Below, piece by piece: positions 1,159 through 14,385 of a DNA stretch of 64,000 nt (position 1 is the first letter of the stretch; each line of letters begins with the position of its first letter). The position numbers and the translations under genes were made by a program. Under the pieces are notes generated by a model, which was given only the letters and a program-made list of their open reading frames with translations, was not told the origin of the DNA and ran no database searches. This stretch comes from Flavobacterium sp. MC2016-06 (GTDB taxonomy: Bacteria; Bacteroidota; Bacteroidia; Flavobacteriales; Flavobacteriaceae), in the NCBI RefSeq assembly GCF_009711165.2, contig NZ_WMID02000016.1, forward strand, positions 62,001 through 126,000, in the 5' to 3' direction.

Positions 1159-1232
1159 GACCGCGTAGTTCAACTGGATAGAATATCAGATTTCGGCTCT
1201 GAGGGTTGGGGGTTCGAACCCCTCCGCGGTCA
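1159..1232 (+). tRNA. tRNA-Arg (anticodon TCG)
   Basis: A full cloverleaf can be drawn: acceptor GACCGCG/CGCGGTC with discriminator A, D stem GTTC/GAAT, anticodon stem TCAGA/TCTGA around loop TTTCGGC, T stem GGGGG/CCCTC around TTCGAAC. The anticodon is TCG, which reads CGN arginine codons. CCA is not encoded. The 74-nt length is normal. It lies about 180 bp left of the first recognisable repeat of the cassette array. Confidence 0.95.
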
Positions 1233-1244
1233 CTACAAAAATTA

Positions 1245-1281: not shown

Positions 1282-1410
1282 GTTCGAAAATCTTTTAGTT
1301 ATTTTTTTACTTTTTACAAAATCAATTTACGCGAGTAATGTTAGTATGGATTTCAACACGGTTATTTAATTTATAGATTATATTTTTTCTTACTGCTAAT
1401 CTAATTACAA

Positions 1411-1470
1411 AATGATCTTTAAATTCACTCAAATGTCCAAACTTGGTGTAACAGCTTTTAACGGTTCATT
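1411..1470 (-). repeat. Degenerate attC-like site (distal end of array)
   Basis: Only the right arm is recognisable: ATCTTTAAATTCACTCAAAT followed by GTGTAACAGCTTTTAACGG. It aligns with the right arms of the full repeats further right. Its outer end (TTTAACGGTTCATTGT) is nearly the inverse of the left end of the next repeat (rc GTTAGCGGTCATTGT), apart from one inserted T and two changes, so it once closed the GNAT cassette. The left arm cannot be traced in 1290-1410. Confidence 0.55.
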
Positions 1471-1481
1471 GTTTCTGTTGT

Positions 1482-1991
1482 TTATTCTTTTAGTTTTAGT
1501 TTCCAATTGAATAATGTTTTTGTTTCTTCAATTTTCAAAAAATTATTTTTCAACAAGATTTTAAATGAAGCGATATTTTCTTTTTCGGTAGACGCAATTA
1601 TTGAAAATACCTTAGGTTGGGATTTAGCCCAAGTTATTAATCCAGCAACAGCTTCTGTCATAAACCCTTTTTTTTGAAATTCTTCATAAGTTCCATATCC
1701 AATTTCAATTTCTCCATCTGAATTTGGTTCTCCAACAATGCAAATATCTCCAACCATTTTGTTGTCAACTTTTGAAATTGCTGTCCAAAGAGTTGAGTAT
1801 AAGTAGTTTTTAGTCGTATCGGCTACATTTGGTAAAATTGTTTGTTCAAAAGCTTCTTTTAGTTCGGGTGAAATTTTTCTTGAAGTTGTATTTAAATTTA
1901 ATTCTTCTTCCAAAGAGTTGTCACATTTAGTATATTTTACTAATTGCTCATAATTTAATGGTCGTAAAATAAGTCGTTCTGTTTCTATCAT
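1482..1991 (-). CDS. GNAT-family N-acetyltransferase (RimJ/RimL type), cassette 1
   Basis: A 169-residue protein starting MIETERLILRPLNYEQL, the classic opening of RimJ/RimL-like acetyltransferases. A central IGYGTYEEFQKKGFMTEAV corresponds to motif A, which binds acetyl-CoA (normally Q/RxxGxG/A), and SFKILLKNNFLKIEE matches the C-terminal motif B region. Members transfer acetyl from acetyl-CoA to amines of small molecules or protein N-termini; the substrate cannot be read here. The stop lies just right of the degenerate attC-like site and the start is 42 bp from the next repeat, so it is a single-gene cassette. GNAT enzymes are frequent integron cargo. Confidence 0.85.
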   Translation of the reverse strand: MIETERLILRPLNYEQLVKYTKCDNSLEEELNLNTTSRKISPELKEAFEQTILPNVADTTKNYLYSTLWTAISKVDNKMVGDICIVGEPNSDGEIEIGYGTYEEFQKKGFMTEAVAGLITWAKSQPKVFSIIASTEKENIASFKILLKNNFLKIEETKTLFNWKLKLKE

Positions 1992-2032
1992 TTTTGGTTG
2001 TTAATTTTTGGATGGTGAGGAATTACAATGAC

Positions 2033-2165
2033 CGCTAACTTTCTGACGCTGCAAGAAGTTTGGGATTAAAGATGAGAGTTTTTTCCATTATGCACAAATT
2101 TTCCAAATATAAAACCATTTTTAAATTCAGCCAAATGCCTAAATCTCTTGTAACGGTTGTTAGTG
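2033..2165 (-). repeat. attC-like site 1
   Basis: 133-bp imperfect palindrome. Left end CGCTAAC, right end GTTAGTG; inner arms GCAAGAAGTTTGGGATTAAA and CCTAAATCTCTTGTAACGG pair with a few bulges. Its right end continues as GTTAGTGGTAGTGGC, which matches the inverse of the left end of the next repeat (4441-4455) in 14 of 15 bases. In integron terms, R'' of this cassette pairs with the R' half that starts the same cassette. Confidence 0.75.
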
Positions 2166-2190
2166 GTAGTGGCTTTTCTCAGTTAGAGGT

Positions 2191-3105
2191 TTAGTTAAAA
2201 GATTGTCTAAATTCCAACGGACTCAAATTCGTTTTACTTTTAAATATTTTAGTAAAAGAGGAGGAGTGTTCAAAACCTAATTGATAAGCAATTTCGGTGA
2301 TTGTTAATTTTGTTGTTGATATTTTTTCTTTTGCTTTTTCAATCAATTTATTGTGTATGTGTTGTTGTGCATTTTGTCCAGTCATTGAACGTAACATATC
2401 ACTTAAATAATTGGGGGAAATATTTAATTGTTCTGACAAAAATTTAACGGTCGGAACTCCTTGATTTGATGAATTTTCGTTATCAAAATAATTATCTAAA
2501 ATATCCTCTAACTTCTGTAACAGTTCATTATTTATTACTTTTCGTGTAATGAACTGTCTTTTATAAAAACGATTGCTATAACTCAATAAAGTTTCTATTT
2601 GCGATATCAGTACATCTTGACTAAAGTCGTCAATCCTATTTTGTAATTCATCCTCAATGATTTTAAAAATTGAAAAAACAGTTGATTTTTCTTTATCCGA
2701 TAAATGCAAAGCTTCATTTACAGCATAAGAAAAGAAACCGTATTGTTTTATTTTTTTTGCTAATGGATAGGATAATAAAAAATCAGGATGAATGAACAAT
2801 AACTTACCTGTATTTTCAGTATCATCTGGCGCTTCAAAGACTTGATTTGGTGCTGTGAAAATCATTCCGCCTTCCCCAAAATCAAAATAATTTTGTCCAT
2901 ATTTTACCCGTTTATGAAAACTTGATTTATAAGCTATTTTAAAAAATTTTAAAATGTACGAATTGGATAATTCATCTGGCGATTCTTTAATGTCTTCTAT
3001 GTCAATAAGGCTTACCAATGGGTGCAAGGGCTTTGGTAGCCCGAGCACTTTATGGAATTCTGTTAGAGATTCAAATTTATAAGGACTATTTTCATCTTTA
3101 TTCAT
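2191..3105 (-). CDS. AraC-family transcriptional regulator, cassette 2
   Basis: A 304-residue protein. The first 200 residues are a variable sensing domain; the last 90 form the double helix-turn-helix of AraC/XylS regulators: VKFLSEQLNISPNYLSDMLR, then ITEIAYQLGFEHSSSFTKIF and the closing KSKTNLSPLEFRQS. It lies 23 bp downstream of the PobA-like hydroxylase on the same strand, within one cassette, so it probably controls that enzyme or responds to its substrate. AraC-type PobR/PobC regulators of pobA are known in pseudomonads and rhizobia. Its stop is 25 bp from the attC-like site. Function of the ligand domain is unknown. Confidence 0.9.
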   Translation of the reverse strand: MNKDENSPYKFESLTEFHKVLGLPKPLHPLVSLIDIEDIKESPDELSNSYILKFFKIAYKSSFHKRVKYGQNYFDFGEGGMIFTAPNQVFEAPDDTENTGKLLFIHPDFLLSYPLAKKIKQYGFFSYAVNEALHLSDKEKSTVFSIFKIIEDELQNRIDDFSQDVLISQIETLLSYSNRFYKRQFITRKVINNELLQKLEDILDNYFDNENSSNQGVPTVKFLSEQLNISPNYLSDMLRSMTGQNAQQHIHNKLIEKAKEKISTTKLTITEIAYQLGFEHSSSFTKIFKSKTNLSPLEFRQSFN

Positions 3106-3128
3106 AATGCTAAAATAAGATATTTCTA

Positions 3129-4307
3129 CTAAACATTTCCTCGTTGGTATTCGCTATGCAAACGAATTGCTGCTGGTGAATTAAATAAAGTATCCAATTG
3201 TGCACGGGCAGTCATTTGGCGAAATTTTCCGTGTTGTGTAGGATTTCCAGCATCGTGCATAAGATTGGTCATTGAAATGGCAAAATCTTGGTATGTCCAA
3301 ATATGTGGTAAACAAGTATTGGAATATTCGTTTAATGTTTTTAAGTTATTATCTTTTACAGCATCTAAAATTGCTTGTGCCAAAATATCAACATCGAAAA
3401 GCGCAAGATTCATTCCTTTTGCACTTGTAGGAGGTACAAGATGTGCTACATCGCCAGCAAGAAAGAGATTTCTGTATTGCATTGGAGAATGAACTACGCT
3501 ACGCAATGGAACAAATTGTTTGTCAATTATGGTTGAATTTGGTATAGTTGAATCGTTCAAACGTAATCGAATTTCATCCCAAAATCTTTCATCAGACCAA
3601 TCTTGTGGTCCATCACTCAAATCACATTGTAAATAATATCGGCTTCTCTGTGGTCCACGAGGAAGTTGTCCAACAAAACCATAATCACTTACAGCCATAA
3701 TTGGATGTCCTACAACTGGAGCTTCTACGTGTGCTGCCAACCACGAATATCCAAACTCATAACTGTACTTGGTCAAAACTCCATTAGGAATTGATGAACG
3801 ACTCATTCCTCTACTACCATCGCAGCCAATAATGTAGTCGCAAGTAATTTCGTGAGTTCCATTTGCGTCAGAATAGGTAACTGTGGTAGGTTTATTTTCT
3901 TCATTTTGAATAAGAACATTATTGACATCAAAACGAACATCACCGTCCATTTTATCTATTAATGTTTTTAGTAAATTGTTAACGAGCATTTGTTGGGTAC
4001 AAAACCGACCTGATTTGCCATTCTCTTCAATAATTTCAAAAATTCGGCTTTCTCCATTTACTCTATAATCAATTGTTTGAGCAACTGGTCCAGCAAGTAA
4101 TTCATCTGCCAATCCCCATCTTTCAAACATATCTACACCACGTGCTTCTATAACACCTGCTCGTTGTAAAGTTTCTACAGAACTTCTATTTTGGGTTTCT
4201 AAAACCACACAAGTGATATCTGATTTCTGTAAAAAAGCAGCCAAGGTAAGACCTGAAACACCCGCTCCAATAATGGCAACAGTTATTTTTTCTTCATTGT
4301 AATCCAT
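3129..4307 (-). CDS. pobA: 4-hydroxybenzoate 3-monooxygenase-like FAD hydroxylase, cassette 2
   Basis: A 392-residue class A flavoprotein hydroxylase, the same length as PobA. Visible: the Rossmann FAD loop VAIIGAGVSGLTLAAFL, the RAGVIE motif, the DG motif CDYIIGCDGSRGMSR, RSRYYLQ and WSDERFWDEIRLRL as in PobA, and the second FAD motif LFLAGDVAHLVPPTSAKGMN. The family uses FAD, NADPH and O2 to ortho-hydroxylate para-hydroxybenzoate to protocatechuate. The substrate here may be a related phenol, since no ring-cleavage genes are nearby. It is the first gene of a two-gene unit with an AraC regulator, in a cassette of about 2.3 kb, long for integron cargo. The 142 bp before the start may hold its promoter. 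Confidence 0.85.
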   Translation of the reverse strand: MDYNEEKITVAIIGAGVSGLTLAAFLQKSDITCVVLETQNRSSVETLQRAGVIEARGVDMFERWGLADELLAGPVAQTIDYRVNGESRIFEIIEENGKSGRFCTQQMLVNNLLKTLIDKMDGDVRFDVNNVLIQNEENKPTTVTYSDANGTHEITCDYIIGCDGSRGMSRSSIPNGVLTKYSYEFGYSWLAAHVEAPVVGHPIMAVSDYGFVGQLPRGPQRSRYYLQCDLSDGPQDWSDERFWDEIRLRLNDSTIPNSTIIDKQFVPLRSVVHSPMQYRNLFLAGDVAHLVPPTSAKGMNLALFDVDILAQAILDAVKDNNLKTLNEYSNTCLPHIWTYQDFAISMTNLMHDAGNPTQHGKFRQMTARAQLDTLFNSPAAIRLHSEYQRGNV

Positions 4308-4448
4308 AATTTAGTTCATTTAAATATCGAAGTACAAAGGTCAATAGATTGCTGTTGTCCGAATTAGGCGAATTGAAGTATTTTTTAGCCAAAATAAGAA
4401 TTTAAATGATTATCAGATATCATATGAATTCCCTTTTTTTGCCATTAC

Positions 4449-4581
4449 CACTAACGTCCTGGCGTTACAAGAGGTTTGGGATTAAAGATGCGAGTTTTTT
4501 CCATTATGCACAAATCTTCCAAGTACAAAACCATCTTGAAATTTAGCCAAATGCCCAAATCTCTATTAACGGCTGTTATGC
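4449..4581 (-). repeat. attC-like site 2
   Basis: 133-bp copy. Left end CACTAAC, right end GTTATGC, a typical integron core sequence. Inner arms GCGTTACAAGAGGTTTGGG and GCCCAAATCTCTATTAACGG pair. The right end has no inverse match at the next visible boundary, because the neighbouring site at 5103 is only half present. Confidence 0.75.
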
Positions 4582-4586
4582 GATGT

Positions 4587-5102
4587 TTAATTTGTACAGA
4601 ATTTTAAGTTCTTCCAATCTATTATTACTTTTTGTTCCTTTATATCAAATTCAAACTTGTCTAATTCAAATTTGACATTGTTGCATGTAAATATTATTTT
4701 TGGATTTTGTAATTGATTTAAATATTCATAACCTATCAATTGAGTATAACAGTGAACTGAAGTAATCATTTTTTTTTCTTCATCAGTAAATTTTTCATAA
4801 TCAGTAGTAACAGTTTTACGCATTGGAATTTCAATATTGCCTAAATTAGCCTTTACGTTTTTCGGAATGTTTATGATTTCAATCGATATCCAGGATTCAA
4901 GAAAAAAAATATTATTTAATTTTTCTGGCAGATCTAATGAGAAAATTCCATCACCATCAGTTGTTATGTATGGAACTTTTTTGTTAACTGAAATCATTGA
5001 CCAAACTCCTTTATCAAATAAAGTTGTTCGTCCAGATAATTGGGCTTGAGAGTTTAAAGTAAGTAACAACAGTAATATTATATAGTATGTGTTCTTTTTC
5101 AT
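4587..5102 (-). CDS. Secreted protein of unknown function, cassette 3a
   Basis: 171 residues with a clear Sec signal peptide (MKKNTYYIILLLLLTLNSQA, cleavage near residue 20). The mature part starts QLSGRTTLFDKGVW and contains TTDGDGIFSLDLPE, which resembles the 'TD.DG.F.L' strand of carboxypeptidase-regulatory-like beta-sandwich domains; the rest is not recognised. It is probably periplasmic or surface-exposed. The stop is 5 bp from an attC-like site, and the start codon directly abuts a half attC-like site, leaving almost no room for a promoter of its own. It may be read from the gene to its right. Confidence 0.7.
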   Translation of the reverse strand: MKKNTYYIILLLLLTLNSQAQLSGRTTLFDKGVWSMISVNKKVPYITTDGDGIFSLDLPEKLNNIFFLESWISIEIINIPKNVKANLGNIEIPMRKTVTTDYEKFTDEEKKMITSVHCYTQLIGYEYLNQLQNPKIIFTCNNVKFELDKFEFDIKEQKVIIDWKNLKFCTN

Positions 5103-5130
5103 AAATCTCTTGTAGCATTGTTGTGAGTGG
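5103..5130 (-). repeat. Half attC-like site
   Basis: Only the right arm end is present: AAATCTCTTGTAGC followed by ATTGTTGTGAGTGG, which lines up with the right ends of the full repeats (AAATCTCTTGTAACGGCTGTTGTG). The left arm is gone and the ORF to the left begins at the break. This looks like a deletion that fused two cassettes. Confidence 0.6.
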
Positions 5131-5135
5131 CTTCC

Positions 5136-5699
5136 TTAGGTTGTTTGGTATAAATGTACTATTTGGTTATGTTCTCTACTATAAAACACATATATTTTCT
5201 TATCGCAAGAATCTGCACAAAATGGATATGTTTCGATTTCAGTAATAAATACCATTGGATTTCCATTTGTGTCGTTTGGTGTTGCATCTCCTTGCCACCA
5301 TTCTGGCTCCCCTCCAATTTTAATTTCGGCAATATTAAATTTATTTCCAGTATTTAGAAATTCATTTTTAGACCCTTCAAATTTTTCTTTTGTTTCGATT
5401 TGATATTCTTTCCAATCATCTGTTGTGTCAAAATATGCTAAATCAGTGTCGAAATTGTATTTGTCGTTTTCAATTGTAAAAGAAATCATTGTATCAGTAC
5501 AATATTCTGTAAAATATTTTACAGTTTCTCTATTGTATGGATCTTCATTAAATTGAAGAATAAAAAAATAACCTTCCCAATTTTCATTAATAAGTGTTTT
5601 TGGAATTGCAACTACGGGTAAGAAAATTTCGGAATGTCTATCTGTAATATTGTTAAAGACATCTTCTAATTTTGGAAATAAGATTAATACATTTTTCAT
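5136..5699 (-). CDS. Hypothetical protein with DUF1963-like C-terminus, cassette 3b
   Basis: 187 residues without signal peptide, acidic, cytosolic by appearance. The C-terminal third reads KIGGEPEWWQGDATP, then GNPMVFITEIE, a short Cys-containing segment and KIYVFYSREHNQIVHLYQ. This pattern (GG.P.W.Q, then M.F..QI, then .YVFY) resembles the end of DUF1963/YwqG-type proteins, whose function is unknown. The match is by eye only. It lies between attC-like site 3 and the half site, 38 bp from the former. Confidence 0.65.
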   Translation of the reverse strand: MKNVLILFPKLEDVFNNITDRHSEIFLPVVAIPKTLINENWEGYFFILQFNEDPYNRETVKYFTEYCTDTMISFTIENDKYNFDTDLAYFDTTDDWKEYQIETKEKFEGSKNEFLNTGNKFNIAEIKIGGEPEWWQGDATPNDTNGNPMVFITEIETYPFCADSCDKKIYVFYSREHNQIVHLYQTT

Positions 5700-5737
5700 T
5701 CTGAATTTTTATTTAATATAGTTGGTTTTAAAGTTAT

Positions 5738-5869
5738 GCAAAACGTTCTCGCGCTACAAGAGGTTGGGAATAAAGGTGCGTAATTTTTCCATTATGCAAT
5801 AATCTTCCAAATACAAAACCAACTTCAAATTAAGCTTAAAACCCCAATCTTCCCAAACGGCTGTTAGCA
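5738..5869 (-). repeat. attC-like site 3
   Basis: 132-bp copy, the most diverged of the full sites. Left end GCAAAAC, right end GTTAGCA. The right end GTTAGCAGTAGATTT matches the inverse of the left end of site 4 (GCTAGCGGTAAGTTT) in 11 of 15 bases, so it belongs to the cassette at 5888-6289. Confidence 0.7.
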
Positions 5870-5887
5870 GTAGATTTTATTCTCTAT

Positions 5888-6289
5888 TTAGTTTTCTTGT
5901 TTAAATACTAGTGGTTTCATTTCAATATTTTTATTAATTAATGTTGATTTTTGAATTGTCATTTTATTAAATTCGTTACAATTATCGATTATCAAAATGC
6001 CTTTTTTAACTTTCCATTTATATGTTTTTTCTAAGTTATCATACATATGTTCATACATTTCTTTTCTTTCAGGAATAACCTCGGCTAACACCTTATAGGA
6101 AATGACCACAGAATCTTTTTTAAAGTCTAAAATACGATAAGTATACAACATGCCTATTCCATCTTTGCAAGTTGCTCCAACTTCTGCGATATATCTTTTG
6201 CCCATTGGTGAAGCTTGAGCATTCGCTTTTAGTGAAATACATGTAAGAGCAATCAACACAAAAAATAATTTTAATATAATAATCCTCAT
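5888..6289 (-). CDS. Small secreted protein of unknown function, cassette 4
   Basis: 133 residues. The N-terminus MRIIILKLFFVLIALTCIS ending ...KANAQA is a Sec signal peptide. The mature domain (about 108 residues) contains KRYIAEVGATCKDGIGMLYTY and several alternating hydrophobic strands, suggesting a small beta-rich periplasmic protein. No family is recognised. The stop is 18 bp from attC-like site 3; 77 bp separate the start from site 4. On the minus strand of that gap a TACATTTT preceded by TTG resembles the flavobacterial promoter with one mismatch, so the cassette may carry its own promoter. Confidence 0.7.
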   Translation of the reverse strand: MRIIILKLFFVLIALTCISLKANAQASPMGKRYIAEVGATCKDGIGMLYTYRILDFKKDSVVISYKVLAEVIPERKEMYEHMYDNLEKTYKWKVKKGILIIDNCNEFNKMTIQKSTLINKNIEMKPLVFKQEN

Positions 6290-6366
6290 TTTAAAATTTC
6301 AGTTTTTAATGTTGTTTGGTTAAAATGTATGATATTCTGAATTTACAATTTTTGTAGTAAACTTAC

Positions 6367-6499
6367 CGCTAGCGTTCTGGCGATATACGAGGTTTGGGAT
6401 TAAAGATGCGAGTTTTTTCCATTATGCACAAATTACCCAAATACAAAACCATCTTTAAATTCAGCCTAATGCCCAAATCTCTTGTAATGGCTATTGGCA
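6367..6499 (-). repeat. attC-like site 4
   Basis: 133-bp copy. Left end CGCTAGC (one base off the CGCTAAC of site 1) and right end ATTGGCA, where the first base of the expected GTT is changed. Both outer cores are altered, so this copy may be a poor recombination substrate, although the inner arms (GAGGTTTGGGATTAAAGATG / CATCTTTAAATTCAGCC) are intact. Confidence 0.7.
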
Positions 6500-6521
6500 G
6501 AAGTGCTTTTCTTCAAATTTT

Positions 6522-7004
6522 TTATTCTTCACATATTCTCAATTCCCAATTATTATTTTTTACAAAATTTAGAAACCTACTTAAGTCATTTATACAATTG
6601 TCATCCCAAATACCTATTTGTGGACTTTGTCTATATTGCTCAATAATTTCTGGAATTATTTTTATTATCCAATCAAGTTCATTTTCTGTAATTAACTCAG
6701 CAATTGATTCAATATCCCGCCATCCTTTGCATTCATACCAGTTTTTAATAAAATTTGGCAATTCTTGATATTCTTTTTTATTAACTATAAGTGCTCTTAT
6801 AAATGAATCAAAATAGCCTTCCCAAAGACTAAAAAAATAAATATTATTTTCTCCTTGCGTTAGCTGAATTTCGTGAAATTTATCTTTCTCGTACTCTTTA
6901 ATATTTTTTTCAAATACAGTTTCTTTTGAATTGGTGTATAGCCTAATCTCTGTTTCTCCTAAAAAATCAGAATAGTAGTCCAACTTTAAAAGCTTTATTT
7001 TCAT
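6522..7004 (-). CDS. Hypothetical protein, cassette 5
   Basis: 160 residues, no signal peptide or membrane segment. The N-terminal half is beta-rich (MKIKLLKLDYYSDFLGETEI), and the C-terminal half is helical and acidic with several Trp (ECKGWRDIESIAELI, SPQIGIWDDNCINDLSRFL). Such small acidic soluble proteins include immunity proteins, but no family is recognised, so no function is assigned. The stop is 22 bp from attC-like site 4 and the start 51 bp from site 5. Confidence 0.65.
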   Translation of the reverse strand: MKIKLLKLDYYSDFLGETEIRLYTNSKETVFEKNIKEYEKDKFHEIQLTQGENNIYFFSLWEGYFDSFIRALIVNKKEYQELPNFIKNWYECKGWRDIESIAELITENELDWIIKIIPEIIEQYRQSPQIGIWDDNCINDLSRFLNFVKNNNWELRICEE

Positions 7005-7055
7005 CAGTCAGATTTTGTTATTAAATACCTAATTCTCCTGCCCTTTAGCATTTTT

Positions 7056-7186
7056 TTTAAACGTCCTGACCTTACAAAAGGTTTGGAATTAAAGATGAGA
7101 GTTTTTTCCATTATGCACAAGTTTTCCAAGTACATAACCATTTTTTAAATTCAGCCTTTTGACCAAATCTCTTGTAGCTGTTGTGT
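7056..7186 (-). repeat. attC-like site 5
   Basis: 131-bp copy. Right end GTTGTGTGTAGTTTA matches the inverse of the left end of site 6 (GTTGTGCGTAATTTA) in 13 of 15 bases. The left end (TTTAAAC behind a T run) is degenerate and does not match the right end of site 4. Confidence 0.72.
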
Positions 7187-7191
7187 GTAGT

Positions 7192-7707
7192 TTATTTTGC
7201 AATATAAACACTTTGATATATTCCATTTTGTAAATGATTTGTATTCTTTTTTTCTAAGCCAATGTTGTATAATTCTTCATCAAAGCAACTAATTATAGCA
7301 TTTAAGAATGCATTACTACAAGCACCTCTATTCCAGGAATCTGTAGGATGAAATCCTGCGAAATTAATTTCAAATATTAAATATAAACGTTCACCTTTTA
7401 TCGATGAAATCCAATTAATAAAAAATTCGGCAAATTTTACCATTTCATCTTTTCCTGATTCAAAGTTTGAAATTTCAAATTTATTTTCTGGTACTTTCCA
7501 ATCTAAATAAGAATACGGAAGTTTGTCAATATTTTCATTATTTGGATAGTTTTCAAATTCATAAATATTTAATTCAATTATTGAATATTTATCGTGCTTT
7601 CGATAAAAACCTATTCCATTTAATTTTTCAAAATTCCACTTTTTTACGCTGGTTTCAATTTTAGATAAATTTTCAGCACCAGAAATTATATTCCCTAATT
7701 GTATCAT
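7192..7707 (-). CDS. Hypothetical protein, cassette 6
   Basis: 171 residues, cytosolic by appearance. It begins MIQLGNIISGAENLSKIET and contains NGIGFYRKHDKYSIIELNIYE and, near the end, EINFAGFHPTDSWNRGACSN with FLNAIISCFDEELYNIGLEK. No family recognised; alternating strands suggest a mixed alpha/beta fold. The stop lies 5 bp from attC-like site 5. The 46 bp before its start include a short stretch shared with cassettes 5 and 7. Confidence 0.65.
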   Translation of the reverse strand: MIQLGNIISGAENLSKIETSVKKWNFEKLNGIGFYRKHDKYSIIELNIYEFENYPNNENIDKLPYSYLDWKVPENKFEISNFESGKDEMVKFAEFFINWISSIKGERLYLIFEINFAGFHPTDSWNRGACSNAFLNAIISCFDEELYNIGLEKKNTNHLQNGIYQSVYIAK

Positions 7708-7753
7708 TTGGTTTCATTAATTTATTAAATTCTCCTGTTTTCGGTTAAATTAC

Positions 7754-7886
7754 GCACAACGTTCTGGCGCTACAATAGGTTTGGGATTAAATATGCGTAT
7801 TTTTTCCATTATGCACAAATTTTCCAAGTACAAAACTATCTTTAAATTCAGCCAAATACCCAAATCTCTTGTAACGGCTGTTGTGT
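7754..7886 (-). repeat. attC-like site 6
   Basis: 133-bp copy. Left end GCACAAC, right end GTTGTGT. The right end GTTGTGTGCAGTTTT matches the inverse of the left end of site 7 (GTTGTGTGCAATTTT) in 14 of 15 bases. It closes the protease cassette. Confidence 0.77.
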
Positions 7887-7893
7887 GCAGTTT

Positions 7894-8631
7894 TTATAAC
7901 TCATTAATTAGTTCCGCAATTATTTCAGGTCTTAGAATTGTAGCTAATTTTGTTTGTTCATTTCTAAGATGAATTAGTCCAGCAAATTCTGATTTTATTT
8001 CTCCATTCTCAGAATAGTTCGTAAAAACCGGAGAGCCAGAAGTACCTTTTGTCAATGTTCCACTTTCATATGATACTACATAATTATCAAAATCTAATTC
8101 ATTTGTTTCAAAGTATCTAAGTGGTTTCTTATACTCGAATTTTAGGTTACCTTTAAATTCAGTTGGTTTTAAACTTTCTACATACAAGTCAAAATTATCC
8201 TCATTTCCATTTACAACACCAAATCCATAACATATAATTTTGGAGGGTAAGCAATTAGGTTGAATTTTTACGATTTTCAAATCATATTGTTTAGCTATAT
8301 CTACTTTATAAAAGTTAATGTCAAGATTTTTGGATTTTTCGGATTTAGAAATTGGGTTATTATTTATTTGCAAAAAATCTAATTTATTCGTTACATTATT
8401 ATGTAGTCTAATGTAAAAAAAATCTGCTGTTTTTTGAGTCGCAAACTTATCTTGAAAAAAATTGTGTGAAGCCGTAACCAGATAAGTTTGGTTATCTTTT
8501 TCAATAAAAAAACCTGTTCCTTGATTTATTTGATTATCCTTTACAGAAAAAAGGAAGTAACTAAACTCCTGAATTGGACTAATCCAGTTATTGGCTAAAA
8601 TCATAAGTAATATAAATGGTTTAAAAATCAT
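7894..8631 (-). CDS. Trypsin-like (S1-fold) serine protease, cassette 7
   Basis: 245 residues. A hydrophobic N-terminus (MIFKPFILLMILANNW) suggests export. The catalytic triad is readable: His in YLVTASHNFF, Asp in NLDINFYKVD, and Ser in LTKGTSGSPVFTN, the GxSGSP signature of trypsin-like proteases. The N-terminal barrel starts GTGFFIEKDNQTYLV. No PDZ domain follows, so it is not a typical DegP. It probably acts in the periplasm or outside. Stop 7 bp from attC-like site 6; start 66 bp from site 7. It is the proximal ORF of the array. Confidence 0.83.
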   Translation of the reverse strand: MIFKPFILLMILANNWISPIQEFSYFLFSVKDNQINQGTGFFIEKDNQTYLVTASHNFFQDKFATQKTADFFYIRLHNNVTNKLDFLQINNNPISKSEKSKNLDINFYKVDIAKQYDLKIVKIQPNCLPSKIICYGFGVVNGNEDNFDLYVESLKPTEFKGNLKFEYKKPLRYFETNELDFDNYVVSYESGTLTKGTSGSPVFTNYSENGEIKSEFAGLIHLRNEQTKLATILRPEIIAELINEL

Positions 8632-8697
8632 TGATTTTAATAAAATTTAAGTTGTTTCGTCAGGTTCTTGAATTCTCCATTTTTTCGGCAAAATTGC

Positions 8698-8826
8698 ACA
8701 CAACTTCCTGGCACTAAAAGAGGGGATTAAAGATGCGAGTTTTTTCCATTATTCACAAATTTCCCAAGTACAAAACTATCTTTAAATTCAATCAAATACT
8801 CAAATCTCCTATAATGGCTGTTAACA
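8698..8826 (-). repeat. attC-like site 7 (right-most)
   Basis: 129-bp copy, a few bases shorter in the left arm (AAAAGAGGGGATTAAAGATG). Left end ACACAAC, right end GTTAACA. It should close a cassette to its right, but 8827-9137 contains no leftward ORF, so that cassette is lost or was never there. Confidence 0.72.
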
Positions 8827-9137
8827 ACAGTTATTTTAATTTTAAACTTTATTTACTACTTGGTTAAGTATTAAAGTCTTTTAAATGTAACTTTTTGTTT
8901 TTTATTAGCTTTTAATTATAGTTTCTTTAACAGCAACCAAAAAACAAAGCAATAGTTTTACACTCTTAAATTTAACATTTATGAGAATAAAACTATAATT
9001 ATTCTCTGTTGTATAGATATGTAGTTTGATTGAATGACTGAGTAAATAAATTGCCCAAATTCGGCAAGTTTTAGATTAAGTGGTTTAAAGATAATATTAT
9101 TTTGGTCATTGATTAAGACGAAATAGAGGTACAATTT
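8827..9137. other. Gene-free stretch at right border of the array
   Basis: 311 bp, very AT-rich. It holds an imperfect hairpin with arms ATAGTTTTA / TAAAACTAT (about 8950-8994). No integrase fragment, attI-like site or ORF is seen. The right part must carry the promoter of the ECF sigma gene. Confidence 0.6.
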
Positions 9138-9659
9138 ATGGACAATAGAAAAATTATAATAAATCTAAAAAAAGGTAATGAGGCTTCATTCAAAGAAGTT
9201 TACCTTAATTATTATGATAAACTGATAAATATTGCCAAACGATTTAATTTCACTGTTCTTACTCCTGAAGATTTTGTTCAAGAAACTTTTTTAAGACTTT
9301 ATAATAAAAGAGAATTATTGAATGAAGATGTTTTGTTTGATAAACAATTGTATACAATCTGCAAGAACATCATTATCAATCATCTTAACAGAGAAAATAA
9401 AATAATACAGCTTGATTCTTTAAAAGTTGAAATTGCCGATGAAGAAATCGAAACTGGAGATTTTGAAGAAAAAAGAGAAAAATTATACAGTTTCATAAAG
9501 CAGCTTCCCGAGCAGCAGCAAAAAATATTTACTTTACACAAACTGGAAAACCTTAGCTATAAGGAGATTGCATCGCTTACAGAACTTTCTGAAAAGACGA
9601 TTGCCAATCATATTTATCTTGCCAGTAAATTTATTAGAAAAAAAATCGAAAACCATTAG
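9138..9659 (+). CDS. ECF-type RNA polymerase sigma factor
   Basis: 173 residues, normal for group 4 sigma factors. Region 2 (residues about 20-85) includes LTPEDFVQETFLRLYNKREL, and region 4 (about 115-165) includes LPEQQQKIFTLHKLENLSYK and the helix-turn-helix IASLTELSEKTIANHIY. It directs polymerase to specific promoters when released by its anti-sigma factor. It is followed by a small ORF, a FecR-like anti-sigma gene and a TonB receptor with an STN signalling domain, the standard three-part cell-surface signalling layout. Confidence 0.92.
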   Translation: MDNRKIIINLKKGNEASFKEVYLNYYDKLINIAKRFNFTVLTPEDFVQETFLRLYNKRELLNEDVLFDKQLYTICKNIIINHLNRENKIIQLDSLKVEIADEEIETGDFEEKREKLYSFIKQLPEQQQKIFTLHKLENLSYKEIASLTELSEKTIANHIYLASKFIRKKIENH

Positions 9660-9704
9660 GAACTTTTTCATTCTCGTTTGTTATATATAAAAACAGACAT
9701 AGAA

Positions 9705-9914
9705 ATGGATATAGAAGTTTATAAAACGGACGTAAAAACAAAAGAAGATGCAACTCATATTGTGACGCTTCTGCAATTTGTTATTTCCGATTGTATCATG
9801 CATTTTGATATGAAGGGTTCAGATCCTATTTTAAAAATTCAGACCAATAGAGAAATCAAAGAAATGGTTTATGGTGTTTTTAATAAACACGGATTTTATT
9901 GTCAAAAATTATAA
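9705..9914 (+). CDS. Small conserved protein between sigma and anti-sigma genes
   Basis: 69 residues from the ATG at 9705 (an upstream TTG at 9678 is possible but less likely). It begins MDIEVYKTDVKTKEDATHIV and ends HGFYCQKL. The pattern, a beta strand, a helix, a strand with DPILKI, a helix, and GFYCQKL, suggests a ferredoxin-like fold of the heavy-metal-associated type without the CxxC metal motif. It resembles the protein at 35797-36009 (MVEVFKTNV..., ...LGYTCIKLEE). The 45-bp gap after the sigma gene and the 12-bp gap before FecR place it in the operon. Its role is unknown; it could sense or tune the signalling pair. Confidence 0.7.
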   Translation: MDIEVYKTDVKTKEDATHIVTLLQFVISDCIMHFDMKGSDPILKIQTNREIKEMVYGVFNKHGFYCQKL

Positions 9915-9926
9915 TGCCTCAAAATT

Positions 9927-10766
9927 ATGGACGAGAATAAATTAGATGAAGAATTAAAAAAGATATGGGATGAAAAACCCAATGTACATTCTAATGATAT
10001 AAAAGAAGATTCTTGGGAAGATTTCCGTTCTAAGGCTTTTCCTTCTAAGAAAAAAACTTTTTCATGGCGTAATTACGCCGCTGCAGCTGCTGTAATTGTT
10101 ATGCTTATTGGAACGGGAATTTATCTGATTAAAGATCCATTTAAAAATGATATTTCAATTGCAGGAAATGTTATTGAGAATACGACTTCTGAAATCAAAA
10201 CTATTACGCTTCCAGATAGTTCAAAAGTAGAATTAAGTCCTCATTCTAAAATTGAATTTGCAAATAATTTTTCAATCAACAGAAAAATTGAAATGGAGGG
10301 AGAAGCTTATTTTAAAGTTAAAAAAGATAAAAAACATCCTTTTGAAGTTTTTTGTAATGAGACAACAACAAAAGTATTGGGAACATCTTTTACAGTAGTT
10401 GGACAAGATAAAACAGGAGTTATTGTTATGCTTTACGAAGGAAGCGTTCAGATGAATGTAAAAGGTCAGAGTGAAAATTGGGTTTTAAAACCAGGCGAAA
10501 AGTTTACATACGGAAATGGTAATCCTGCTATAGAAGAGTTTAACAGATTTACAGATTTCGACAACGAAAAATTAAGCAATGTGAGTACTTATATCGAAAA
10601 GAATTACGGTTACAAAATGATAATTCCAGCGGAATATAATGACCAGCGAATCACATTAAGAATAACCAAGAAAGAAGATTTAAAAACGATTATTCAATTA
10701 ATATCAGAAATGTATAACCTAAAATTTGAAGTAAATGAGAAAGTAAAACAGATTACTTTTCAATAG
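9927..10766 (+). CDS. FecR-family anti-sigma factor
   Basis: 279 residues. The cytoplasmic N-terminal part (residues 1-45, with DSWEDFRSKAFP) is followed by one membrane helix (NYAAAAAVIVMLIGTGIYLI, about 47-66). The periplasmic FecR domain has ITLPDSSKVELSPHSKIEF, GEAYFKVKKDKKHPFEVF and VLGTSFTV. The C-terminal domain (about 200-279, DUF4974-like, QRITLRITKKEDLKTIIQLI) contacts the receptor in known systems. It should hold the sigma factor inactive until the TonB receptor downstream binds its ligand. Confidence 0.92.
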   Translation: MDENKLDEELKKIWDEKPNVHSNDIKEDSWEDFRSKAFPSKKKTFSWRNYAAAAAVIVMLIGTGIYLIKDPFKNDISIAGNVIENTTSEIKTITLPDSSKVELSPHSKIEFANNFSINRKIEMEGEAYFKVKKDKKHPFEVFCNETTTKVLGTSFTVVGQDKTGVIVMLYEGSVQMNVKGQSENWVLKPGEKFTYGNGNPAIEEFNRFTDFDNEKLSNVSTYIEKNYGYKMIIPAEYNDQRITLRITKKEDLKTIIQLISEMYNLKFEVNEKVKQITFQ

Positions 10767-10866: not shown

Positions 10867-13479
10867 ATGAAGCATATAATTTCAGCATGCTTTTTTTTAC
10901 TCAGTTTGGCTGCGTTCTCTCAAAATGTAACGGTAACTGTAGATAAAACGATTACTCTAAAAGAATTCTTTAAACAAATTGAGAATCAAACAGATTTTAA
11001 ATTTGCTTTTACAGATCAAATTGATACCAATCAACAATACTTTACAAAAAAAGGCAACTATACCAATATGCGAATAGAACAGCTTATTTATGAGTTGAAT
11101 AAGACTTCGATAGTACAATTTTCTATTGTAGGCAATAATATTTTTGTAAAGCAGAAATCCCCTAAAACAGCTAAAAAAAAAACGAAGCTAACTGGTAAAG
11201 TTTTAGATAATACAGGTCATGGCGTTATTGGTGCCAATATTTATATTAAAGAATTAGAAGTTGGTTCTACAACAGATAAAGATGGCTTTTTTGAGATTGA
11301 AGTGCCAAAAGGAAATTATAATGTTGCGATCAGCTATGTTGGTTTTAAAAATCAGGAAAGACAAATCATAGTTTCTGATAATATGTTTGTAAATTTTAAT
11401 TTGGAAGATGACAGTCAGCAGCTCAATCAGGTAATTGTTACAAGTTCCAAAGCTGTTGACGTTAAAAATACACAAATGAGTGTCAACAGACTTTCGATGG
11501 AAGATATTAAGAGAATTCCGGCTGCAATGGGGGAGCCGGATCCCTTAAAATCTTTACTGACATTGCCAGGAGTTACAAATGCTGGAGAAGCTTCATCAGG
11601 TTTTAATGTGCGCGGTGGTGCAGCAGATCAGAATCTTATTTTGCTAGACGGTGCTCCTGTATTTGGTGATTCTCATATGTTTGGTTTCTTTTCCATTTTT
11701 AATGCCGATATGGTTAATAGTTTAGATTTATATAAAGGAGGGATTCCTTCTAAATATGGGGGCAGAGTCTCTTCTGTACTCGACGTAAACCAGCAAACAG
11801 GAGATTTTGAAGATTTTAAAGTAAACGGAGGAATTGGTCTAATCTCAAGCCGACTTTCGGTACAAGGTCCTATAAAGAAAGGAAAAGGTTCATTTATAAT
11901 TGGCGGACGTACTTCTTATGCGCATCTATTTTTAAAATTAACCGACCTTAAGACCGTAATTATGTTTTATGACCTGAATGCTAAATTAAATTATCGTTTT
12001 GATGCCAACAATACGCTTAGTTTTACAGGTTATTTAGGAAATGATCGTATCTATTTTAGCGATCAAGTAGATCTTAATTTTGGAAACACTATGGGGATTT
12101 TAAGCTGGAAACATAAATTCTCAGATAATTTAGATAATAACTTAGCTGTTTTTTATAGTGACTATAAATTTGACCTTGATTTAATAATTCAGGATTTTAA
12201 ATGGAAGAATACTATTCAAACGTATGGCTTAAAATACAATTGGAATCAAAGACTAACTCAAAATTTTAAATTAAACTACGGAATTGAAGGAACTTATTAT
12301 AATTTCAATCCTGGAACAGTACAGCCTACAACTTCAGATTCGCAGTTTAATTATCAGCAATTGGATAAGAAATATGCTTTCGAATCTTCTGCTTACATCG
12401 ACTTTGAACATCAAATTACAGAAAAACTAAACCTTCGATACGGACTTCGTTATAGTTTATTCTATCGCTTAGGAAACGAAGAAATAAGCACTTACGATAA
12501 CGGAAATTCGGTAGTATATAATCCTTTATACAACATCTACGAGAAAGGAACTCCAACAGGAACAATATCGTACAAAAGTGGTGAGACTATAAGTAAATTC
12601 AACAATTTTGAACCACGTGCTGCATTATCCTATACTTTTAATGAAAATGCTTCTGTAAAAGCGAGTTACAACAGAATGGCGCAATATATTCATATGTTAT
12701 CTAACACACAATCGCCGTTACCCATGAATATCTGGACACCAAGCGGACCATTTGCGAAACCGCAGCTGCTAGATCAATTTGCATTAGGATATTTTAGAAA
12801 TTTCAGCGATCGTGATTATTCTTTTGAAGGAGAACTGTTTTACAAAAAGATTCAAAATCGTATCGATTATGTAGACGGTGCAGATATATTGGCAAACAAC
12901 AATATAGAACAAGTAATCTTGAGTGGTAAAGCAAGATCGTACGGTATGGAATTATTATTTAGAAAAAATACGGGACGCTTTAACGGTTGGATTTCTTATA
13001 CATTGTCAAGAGCAGAACAAAAAACGCCAGGAAGAACGGCACAGGAACCGGGTATTGCCAATGGCGAATGGTATTTATCAGGATACGACAAATTACATAA
13101 TTTAAGTATTGTGGGCAGTTATAAATACAGTCCGAAATGGTCTTACAATGCTAATTTTTCATTGCAATCGGGTCAGCCGGTAACGTATGCAAACGGATAT
13201 TATGAATTTGATGGATTCAATGTACCAAATTTTACGCTAAGAAACGGAAGTAGACTTCCCCTTTATCATCACTTAGATTTAGCGGCAACTTACACACCCA
13301 AACCCGATAAAAAGAAAGGATGGCAGAGCTATTGGGTATTTAGTATCTATAATATCTATAACAGACGAAATGCAGCATCAATAACCTTTTCAACCAATGA
13401 GGATACAGGAACAAACGAGACCAAAAAACTATCTATCTATGGATTGGTTCCAGGGGTTTCTTATAATTTTAAATTTTAA
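10867..13479 (+). CDS. TonB-dependent outer-membrane receptor with STN signalling domain
   Basis: 870 residues. Signal peptide (MKHIISACFFLLSLAAFSQ); STN domain (about 22-98, TITLKEFFKQIENQTDFKFA) that signals to FecR; carboxypeptidase-regulatory-like domain (about 106-180, GKVLDNTGHGVIGANIYIKE); plug (about 190-310, RIPAAMGEPDPLKSLLTLPG and FNVRGGAADQNLILLDGAPV); then a 22-strand type barrel ending YGLVPGVSYNFKF. The ligand is unknown. The partner is a DUF4249 lipoprotein rather than SusD, which argues against a standard polysaccharide locus. It works with the ECF/FecR pair upstream to switch on transcription when ligand is taken up. Confidence 0.93.
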   Translation: MKHIISACFFLLSLAAFSQNVTVTVDKTITLKEFFKQIENQTDFKFAFTDQIDTNQQYFTKKGNYTNMRIEQLIYELNKTSIVQFSIVGNNIFVKQKSPKTAKKKTKLTGKVLDNTGHGVIGANIYIKELEVGSTTDKDGFFEIEVPKGNYNVAISYVGFKNQERQIIVSDNMFVNFNLEDDSQQLNQVIVTSSKAVDVKNTQMSVNRLSMEDIKRIPAAMGEPDPLKSLLTLPGVTNAGEASSGFNVRGGAADQNLILLDGAPVFGDSHMFGFFSIFNADMVNSLDLYKGGIPSKYGGRVSSVLDVNQQTGDFEDFKVNGGIGLISSRLSVQGPIKKGKGSFIIGGRTSYAHLFLKLTDLKTVIMFYDLNAKLNYRFDANNTLSFTGYLGNDRIYFSDQVDLNFGNTMGILSWKHKFSDNLDNNLAVFYSDYKFDLDLIIQDFKWKNTIQTYGLKYNWNQRLTQNFKLNYGIEGTYYNFNPGTVQPTTSDSQFNYQQLDKKYAFESSAYIDFEHQITEKLNLRYGLRYSLFYRLGNEEISTYDNGNSVVYNPLYNIYEKGTPTGTISYKSGETISKFNNFEPRAALSYTFNENASVKASYNRMAQYIHMLSNTQSPLPMNIWTPSGPFAKPQLLDQFALGYFRNFSDRDYSFEGELFYKKIQNRIDYVDGADILANNNIEQVILSGKARSYGMELLFRKNTGRFNGWISYTLSRAEQKTPGRTAQEPGIANGEWYLSGYDKLHNLSIVGSYKYSPKWSYNANFSLQSGQPVTYANGYYEFDGFNVPNFTLRNGSRLPLYHHLDLAATYTPKPDKKKGWQSYWVFSIYNIYNRRNAASITFSTNEDTGTNETKKLSIYGLVPGVSYNFKF

Positions 13480-13483
13480 CGAT

Positions 13484-14323
13484 ATGAATAAAGCAGTAAA
13501 AAATAATTTCAAAAGTAAATCACTAGCCTTATTTAGTCTTCTTTTTGTTTTATTGTTATCCTCTTGTGAAGAGGTTGTAAATCTTGATCTTGAAACGGGT
13601 GAAGCCAAAATAGTAATTGACGCTGAAATTCTTTGGAATAAAGATACTGATGGAAAGACGCAAACTATAAAAATTAGTAAAATGGCGCCTTATTACGACA
13701 CAAGCACACCAAAAGTTTCAGGAGCACAGGTTAGAGTTCAGAATAGTGAAGGAGTAGTTTTTACTTTTACAGAAACAGAACCGGGTTCTTATGTTTGTAA
13801 TGACTTCATACCAGTTCTTAATACAGATTATACACTTTTTGTTGAGGCTGAAGGAAAAAGTTTCACAGCTGTTGAAAAGCTTACTTCCGTAACTCCAATT
13901 AATAAAATAGAGCAGAGATACATGCCAGATGTATCAGGTCCTGACTTATTAGTACTTTCCGTTTTTTATAGCGATCCTGTAGATCAGGAAAATTTTTACC
14001 TGACTTATTTCACAACCGATTTTTTAAAAATTCCCTATTATGTAATATCAAAGGATGATTTTTACAATGGCAACGAAATAAAAGACGAATTCTCTGATGT
14101 TGATTTAAAACCAGGGAAAACCGTTAAAATCGTTCATCGTGGAATTTCAAAAAGTTATTATAATTATATGAATCTAATTTTTCAAGCATCAGAAGCAAAT
14201 CCGTTTGCGACATCACCAGCAAATATTAGAGGAAATATTATCAATACTAAAAACAACAGTGATTTTGCATTAGGATATTTTAGACTTTGTGAGGCAGTTA
14301 CGACTTCTTATACAATGAAATAA
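13484..14323 (+). CDS. DUF4249-type outer-membrane lipoprotein
   Basis: 279 residues from the ATG at 13484, 4 bp after the receptor stop. An upstream start at 13397 would lie inside the receptor gene and lose the signal peptide. Lipobox: LFVLLLSSCEEVVNLDLETG, with Cys about residue 25. The mature part has repeated Ig-like strands (AKIVIDAEILWNKDT, VSGAQVRVQNSEG), typical of DUF4249 proteins paired with TonB receptors in Bacteroidota. It probably acts as a surface lipoprotein helping the receptor capture its ligand. A strong terminator follows. Confidence 0.85.
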   Translation: MNKAVKNNFKSKSLALFSLLFVLLLSSCEEVVNLDLETGEAKIVIDAEILWNKDTDGKTQTIKISKMAPYYDTSTPKVSGAQVRVQNSEGVVFTFTETEPGSYVCNDFIPVLNTDYTLFVEAEGKSFTAVEKLTSVTPINKIEQRYMPDVSGPDLLVLSVFYSDPVDQENFYLTYFTTDFLKIPYYVISKDDFYNGNEIKDEFSDVDLKPGKTVKIVHRGISKSYYNYMNLIFQASEANPFATSPANIRGNIINTKNNSDFALGYFRLCEAVTTSYTMK

Positions 14324-14350
14324 ATTTAAAAATATTGAAGCAGAACTAAA

Positions 14351-14385
14351 AAGCCTGAGAATATTAAATTCTCAGGCTTTTTTTG
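14351..14385 (+). terminator. Terminator after the receptor operon
   Basis: Stem AAGCCTGAGAAT / ATTCTCAGGCTT (12 bp), 5-nt loop, then a T run. A-rich DNA on the left means it could also serve the converging leftward glycosidase gene. Confidence 0.88.

Follow-up and report, generated by a model that had tools for sequence, protein, structure and literature searches.

A gene cassette array in Flavobacterium and the integron-type platform of Bacteroidota to which it probably belongs

In IntI integrons, the I2 domain of the integrase reads the extrahelical bases of the folded attC site, and the two have co-evolved, which poses a chicken-and-egg paradox; integrons could in theory also use a classical recombination pathway, according to the same source (PMC4792948). 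The choice of the attC strand is reported to be set mainly by extrahelical bases (PMC2727003). The additional domain has served to select intI genes in a survey (PMC2426708), and an integron-like subgroup of tyrosine recombinases has been described in which this insert is not fully conserved (PMC8138268). As for Bacteroidota, IntegronFinder 2.0 is reported to have found one complete integron in Bacteroidetes proper, in Salinibacter ruber M1 (PMC9024848), and a review lists the phylum among those with integrons (PMC8618304). Here we describe a gene cassette array in a stretch of 64,000 nucleotides from Flavobacterium sp. MC2016-06 (contig NZ_WMID02000016.1, positions 62,001 to 126,000), hereafter the window, together with related genomes in which such arrays stand behind a recombinase gene.

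The window array is very probably an integrase-less cassette cluster of a Bacteroidota integron-type platform, the tyrosine recombinase of which lies outside the IntI clade and has no IntI insert. What can be read from the DNA itself is the synteny, the GTT borders, the pairing of cassette starts with inverse cores, the covariation in the site stem and the attI arms, and the remnants in the host genome. With IntI chromosomal integrons and clusters of attC sites lacking integron-integrases (CALINs; PMC9024848) the platform shares a recombinase gene, an attI site, and head-to-tail cassettes with mostly one direction of open reading frames (ORFs), as well as inverted cores (..AAC/GTT..), borders within GTT, and the occurrence of integrase-less clusters. 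It differs from IntI integrons in that its recombinase gene is codirectional with the cassettes and attI follows the stop codon of that gene. The integrase gene of class 1 integrons points away from the cassettes, while the Treponema denticola integron, with a codirectional integrase that is a true IntI, resembles the platform in gene orientation.

The array spans positions 1400-8842 of the window, where nine leftward ORFs are interspersed with imperfect palindromes, seven complete ones of about 130 bp and two partial copies; the first-pass annotation had placed the repeats in this way, and our comparison confirmed it. The features are as follows:

1159..1233, plus strand: tRNA-Arg (tcg) at the distal end of the array (ARAGORN)
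1400..1472, minus strand: last site of the array, 5' part only (repeat comparison)
1482..1991, minus strand: cassette ORF, GNAT acetyltransferase (PF13302; ORF and family match)
2025..2174, minus strand: full attC-like site with its two cores
2191..3105, minus strand: AraC-type regulator, second gene of a two-gene cassette (ORF and family match)
3129..4307, minus strand: 4-hydroxybenzoate 3-monooxygenase subfamily (NF006091), first gene of the same two-gene cassette
4441..4590, minus strand: full attC-like site
4587..5102, minus strand: cassette ORF, no family found
5098..5131, minus strand: partial site made up solely of the inverse core and the first stem arm, which adjoins the start of the next ORF in a fusion
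5136..5699, minus strand: cassette ORF, no family found
5730..5878, minus strand: full attC-like site, more divergent than the other six
5888..6289, minus strand: cassette ORF, no family found
6359..6508, minus strand: full attC-like site
6522..7004, minus strand: cassette ORF, no family found
7048..7198, minus strand: full attC-like site
7192..7707, minus strand: cassette ORF, no family found
7746..7895, minus strand: full attC-like site, the query for the genome searches
7894..8631, minus strand: cassette ORF with weak likeness to trypsin-type peptidases (PF13365, 27.4 bits, cut-off 27.6)
8690..8835, minus strand: first site of the array, full and attC-like

The main ORFs between the repeats are all on the minus strand; a few short overlapping ORFs were also called on the plus strand. 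The first-pass annotation had named repeats spread genome-wide without ORFs between them as an observation incompatible with a cassette array, and here ORFs lie between the repeats. Both partial copies, read along the ORFs, retain the 5' part of the site. Neither an ORF nor attI was seen before the first site, and the contig that carries the window (C16) has no PF00589 match. With nine sites (two of them partial), the array falls under the definition of a CALIN (at least two sites, integrase absent nearby), though the sites are not canonical attC. The monooxygenase-like ORF scores 404 bits with NF006091 (cut-off 351), while its score with the equivalog TIGR02360 is below the cut-off of that model. 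Five of the cassette proteins had no match in Pfam or NCBIfam, and a PADLOC scan of all nine gave two weak matches (E 7.8e-6, to an FAD-binding stretch, and 0.0085), which were not taken as defence.

In related genomes, recombinase, attI, and array were found together. In the intact order, all on one strand, a gene for a tyrosine recombinase of about 347 residues is followed by attI about 100 nt downstream and then by the cassettes. The sample comprised one Chryseobacterium plasmid and 80 named loci, chosen as the best among 141 relatives in the genome collection; downstream counts refer to the 55 loci with at least 1.5 kb after the recombinase, and upstream counts to the 80 loci. Of the 55 loci, 39 had matches to the sequence model of the site in the first 6 kb after the recombinase, while none of the 80 had any upstream; all 114 matches were on the recombinase strand. 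A structure-only detector, which required AAC and GTT at a distance of 85-190 nt and a stem with 14 or more of 20 positions matching, gave downstream sites on the same strand in 40/55 loci and on the other strand in 2/55, the upstream counts being 1/80 and 2/80, respectively. Altogether, one detector or the other found downstream sites in 46 of the 55 loci. The loci with sites include F. reichenbachii, F. saccharophilum, F. limicola, and F. succinicans; the hairpins were also found in records labelled Chitinophagaceae and Ignavibacteria (metagenome-assembled genomes), and the Chryseobacterium plasmid likewise has a cassette array behind the recombinase. A recombinase relative at E<=1e-60 is carried by 80 of the 150 genus genomes sampled, the lower end of this list being distant.

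Two observations concern the range of these recombinases. One record titled as a Bifidobacterium breve metagenome-assembled genome (L138) encodes the recombinase at 70% identity and is probably a misbinned Bacteroidota contig. A longer relative of about 550-585 residues (L058:3111-4865, L036, L042), which is outside the main tree group, precedes an array in genome G047, so that arrays of this kind may be served by more than a single recombinase subfamily.

The attI site was recognized by an end motif terminating in GTT, which lies within 400 nt past the recombinase stop codon in 58 of 77 loci, mostly at about 100 nt. Ten bases before GTT there is a 6-bp inverted repeat, the letters of which vary between species while the pairing is kept (30 aligned loci). 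In these arms 87.2% of cells are paired, compared with 60.9% after shuffling and 26-52% when the arms are slid, and the covariation is 0.770 against 0.254, a value reached in none of 500 shuffles. The first cassette starts at attI in 30 of 42 loci, with at least eight of ten bases in agreement with the first site's inverse core; no such start was accepted in the other 12.

Each cassette begins with GTTRNNRGYAAK (R') and ends with a hairpin site of about 121 nt, and the longest ORF is on the strand of the site in 192 of the 210 units with an ORF of at least 70 residues. The borders of the unit were examined in one genome (G045) where cassettes are present two or three times in different surroundings, with 99.7-100% identity over the unit. 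Six pairs of such duplicates were compared, and in four of these the upstream context differed. Before GTT the copies share the conserved AAC or fewer bases (none where one copy was at attI), and downstream the divergence starts after GTT or after the shared next core. The cassette border is resolved in this way to the three bases GTT, not to a single bond. For comparison with dif modules, the borders sit at the GTT cores of the hairpin sites of about 121 nt, no separate dif search having been made. Non-autonomous transposons with terminal inverted repeats could account for the several terminal copies that end inside the repeat, for an array that starts with a mirror half, and for copies that are scattered singly. 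The sites, however, stand head to tail on one strand beside a tyrosine recombinase and attI, and the duplicate units part at GTT and not within the repeat, so that the transposon reading is hardly credible and largely refuted.

The truncated sites themselves form a recurrent pattern. Terminal sites of several arrays keep their 5' part only (13 distinct copies, one at a contig end), and many of these end 3' of the apex. Such sites are at L021:15743-15849, L022:4974-5062, L023:12185-12269, L024:12308-12420 and 14303-14369, L028:5530-5624, L093:2698-2770, and L231:1261-1343; in L093 and L231, a tRNA-like sequence comes after the truncated site. A unit border in the middle of the repeat, as these copies had suggested, was dropped since the duplicates in G045 part at GTT.

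The repeats had been described in the first-pass annotation as palindromes with core-like ends. Such ends are present, but they agree more closely with the far end of their own cassette than with the opposite end of the repeat. On average, the seven bases that follow GTT pair with the inverse core at the far end of their own cassette at 5.73 of 7 positions (188 of 230 pairs at five or more), whereas the two ends of one repeat pair at only 2.98 of 7 (39 of 224 at five or more). Permutation within arrays gave a mean of 3.24 and a maximum of 3.62 (5000 permutations). The host genome follows the same trend, with 5.46 within the cassette (26 pairs) versus 3.36 within the repeat (25).

Read along the ORFs, the site opens with R'' (..CYAAC) and a single base; the two arms of the 20-bp stem follow, with an apical region between them, and five further bases lead to R' (GTTRNNRGYAAK). 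The stem is formed by the pairs 15-34/108-127 in the 291 aligned sites, with constant i+j over 20 pairs and with covariation, and no extrahelical base or bulge was found in it. A.C occupies the pair 28/114 in 278 of 290 sites, which corresponds to G.T in the bottom strand, and it is also present at position 11 of the R arm in 172 of 230. Over the whole stem 597 cells are A.C versus 217 G.T, while the pair 19/123 leans the opposite way (G.T in 47%). Eleven further hairpins behind recombinases, unrelated in sequence and missed by the sequence model, are also mostly near 121 nt (9 of 11 at 120-121) and have A.C at the same place in 10 of 11. Since the R'' and R' of a repeat are parts of separate cassettes, the circular form of the cassette was folded with DNA parameters. 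In 185 of 232 cases the bottom strand gave the more stable fold, with mean energies of -24.1 kcal/mol for the bottom strand, -21.6 for the top strand, and -11.2 for mononucleotide shuffles. RNAalifold on 26 host-genome sites as they stand in the arrays had given weak local helices only (-1.26 kcal/mol), and the circular form was used instead.

The attC architecture proposed for the window thus holds as regards hairpin folding, inverted cores, and GTT borders, and fails as regards the extrahelical bases that the first-pass annotation expected. Unlike attC, the platform sites have a 20-bp stem with an A.C mismatch at a fixed place and spacers of 1 and 5 nt. They are similar to CTXphi integration by XerCD, which also employs a hairpin site without extrahelical bases and recombinases without an I2-type domain (PMC4792948), whereas the platform has its own recombinase gene and attI, and its arrays comprise many cassettes. 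The L'-R' half of the site might instead recombine as duplex DNA by the classical pathway, with the hairpin not being the substrate. This would suit a recombinase that has no insert of the I2 kind, and classical-pathway integrons are regarded as theoretically possible (PMC4792948). Duplex recombination, however, would require neither the covariation of both arms over 20 pairs, nor the pairing of R arms within the same cassette, nor the recurrence of the same length and mismatch in sequence-unrelated sites, and we consider it unlikely.

The array recombinases were compared with IntI by motif spacing, phylogeny, and family models. The KGxKDR and HxLRH motifs are 59 residues apart in 79 of 79 array recombinases versus 100-101 in 26 of 26 IntI, and the IntI insert of about 41 residues is missing in all 79. 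In a 68-row tree with some long branches, the 26 IntI rows form one clade (support 100/100) with no array recombinase among them, while the array recombinases group elsewhere together with five other relatives (97/88). Four array recombinases score 201-211 bits with TIGR02249, below its cut-off of 265, which none of 100 relatives exceeded; with NF040815 (XerA_Arch, ‘site-specific tyrosine recombinase/integron integrase’; cut-off 220) the scores are 230.8, 222.1, 218.3, and 203.1 bits. By sequence, the nearest solved relatives are archaeal XerA and then VchIntIA. No match listed in the structure comparison begins before residue 66 of the model, the N-terminal part being outside the comparison; relative to archaeal XerA, XerH, and other simple tyrosine recombinases, which are not known for cassette arrays, the platform protein has these roughly 66 extra N-terminal residues.

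On these comparisons, the platform recombinase is not IntI. The platform has attI beside the recombinase gene, GTT cassette borders, and paired R and L boxes in the hairpin, and has neither the additional domain, nor a position within the IntI branch, nor extrahelical bases. Because these defining features are lacking, it is by membership not an IntI integron, though it appears to work like one. The first-pass annotation noted that no IntI is visible in the window; that the recombinase of the relatives is not IntI either goes beyond its reading. An ordinary IntI integron or CALIN, with ordinary attC sites and a derived IntI that lost its insert, is nevertheless worth weighing, since attI, cassettes, GTT exchange, and inverted cores follow the same logic, the TIGR02249 scores of the four recombinases are high though under the cut-off, the tree leaves the sister of IntI unsettled, and the insert is not fully conserved in the integron-like subgroup (PMC8138268). 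The position of the array recombinases on the other side of the IntI branch, the uniform motif spacing, the ranking of XerA before VchIntIA, and the stem without a bulge make this explanation distinctly improbable.

With one repeat as the query, the host genome (G000) gave 35 matches at E<=0.001 (of 60 first-look candidates, 40 were scored), which is far beyond chance. Most are clustered, namely in two clusters on contig C1, in the window on C16, and on C24, with others on C3, C18, and C31. Its three PF00589 proteins are encoded on contigs C37, C12, and C6, which lack such arrays, and no relative of the array recombinase was found in the genome at E<=1e-60. On C1, however, 135 nt still code for roughly the last 40 residues of the recombinase, joined to attI and then to cassettes; the identity is 67-69% with five of seven queries (Flavobacterium and Chryseobacterium), and 64% and 45% with the remaining, more distant two. 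The cassettes there are preceded by four attI copies that retain the full palindrome, a fifth match keeping the end motif only, and a second array in this genome retains about 60 nt of the 3' end of the recombinase gene by DNA match. Since this gene fragment and the attI copies persist on C1, the host genome evidently once had the platform and then lost the recombinase, which bears out the earlier suggestion of an integrase-less, CALIN-like array with a lost recombinase. Alternatively, the arrays might be moved by host XerCD or by another recombinase in trans, the adjoining recombinase being incidental. That the host genome and others retain arrays with no recombinase would fit, but the strict placement and orientation of the sites behind the recombinase, attI between the recombinase and the sites, and the fragment on C1 render it very unlikely. 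The two C1 arrays (L021:15919-16413, L023:12346-12750) share a terminator-like sequence at their ends, together with a similar helix-turn-helix gene, and look as if these ends had been duplicated.

The position of the window array was compared in 18 relatives, one genome per species, all of which have YqeY and the tRNA-Arg. Sites of the attC-like kind are near this tRNA-Arg in four of them, with different cassettes, and the right flank of the window had no match in the stretches examined (about 10 kb each, one shorter). Because site occupancy and cassettes near the tRNA-Arg differ among the relatives, the locus is variable, as judged between species; repeats of unchanging position between strains had been named in the first-pass annotation as a refuting observation.

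Several points weigh against assigning the window array to such a platform. Recombination is inferred, none having been observed, and the array itself has neither recombinase nor attI. Its end-pairing is moderate (4.71 within the cassette versus 3.14 within the repeat, of 7 positions in 7 units, with four of the seven units at five or more; null mean 2.96, standard deviation 0.53, maximum of 5000 shuffles 4.86), and on this account the window by itself is suggestive only. The fold is weaker in the host genome (19 sites; top strand -15.7, bottom strand -16.8 kcal/mol), the truncated terminal sites are not accounted for by exchange at GTT, and 9 of the 55 loci gave no site by either detector. 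Over the 150 genomes, recombinase and repeat are only weakly associated (48 with both, 30 with the repeat only, 32 with the recombinase only, 40 with neither; p 0.049), because the repeat search depends on sequence. Finally, the additional domain is necessary for IntI activity, as the title of a cited reference has it.

As a mechanism, we propose that the recombinase would bind attI as a duplex and the site as a folded bottom strand, and would cut at GTT, so that circular cassettes are inserted or excised. The strand would be chosen through the uneven 1/5-nt spacers and the near-invariant A.C mismatch, which is G.T in the bottom strand, instead of through extrahelical bases. In the host genome the recombinase would have been deleted, leaving arrays that are presumably decaying. 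Whether the platform represents a second integron lineage separate from IntI, with a Xer/XerA-like recombinase without an I2-type insert, hairpin sites without extrahelical bases, and strand choice by the mispair and the uneven spacer, is in our judgement evenly balanced. Such a lineage would either have invented the integron separately or represent, in living form, the condition that preceded gain of the insert, and would bear on the chicken-and-egg problem of integron origin (PMC4792948), given that the present system has neither the I2-type insert nor the extrahelical bases. If folded single strands are recombined, neither of these is needed for cassette capture; if duplex DNA is used, the platform would be the classical-pathway integron deemed theoretically possible (PMC4792948). 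Either outcome makes the origin of integrons testable.

An integron-like gene-capture system is common in Flavobacterium, and a recombinase without the part thought to define integrons appears to run it. Because surveys chose integron integrases by the additional domain (PMC2426708), a platform without it can be overlooked, despite the recombinase relatives in 80 of the 150 sampled genomes. Our literature search, with most subscription papers and preprints outside its coverage, returned no title or abstract on this system.

The cassettes constitute a little-read reservoir in Bacteroidota, and some arrays have defence-like genes. Among ten array-encoded proteins chosen for a scan, some match models of anti-phage defence (DndD/PbeC, DndH-like, NsnA, and OLD/GajA-like), and some other matches are non-defence, for example a UvrB-like helicase; the defence-like proteins are at L054:3447-4535 and 6885-10557, and at L057:5954-7810. 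Insertion sequences that target attC exist, and an element in genome G177, with a tyrosine recombinase of about 288 residues and a 387-residue partner, is placed as if it targeted cassette sites. The start of its first ORF is exactly 153 nt past the end of the cassette site in five of six mapped copies (L064:8905-9058, 12254-12407, and 18344-18497; L065:2308-2461 and 5937-6090).

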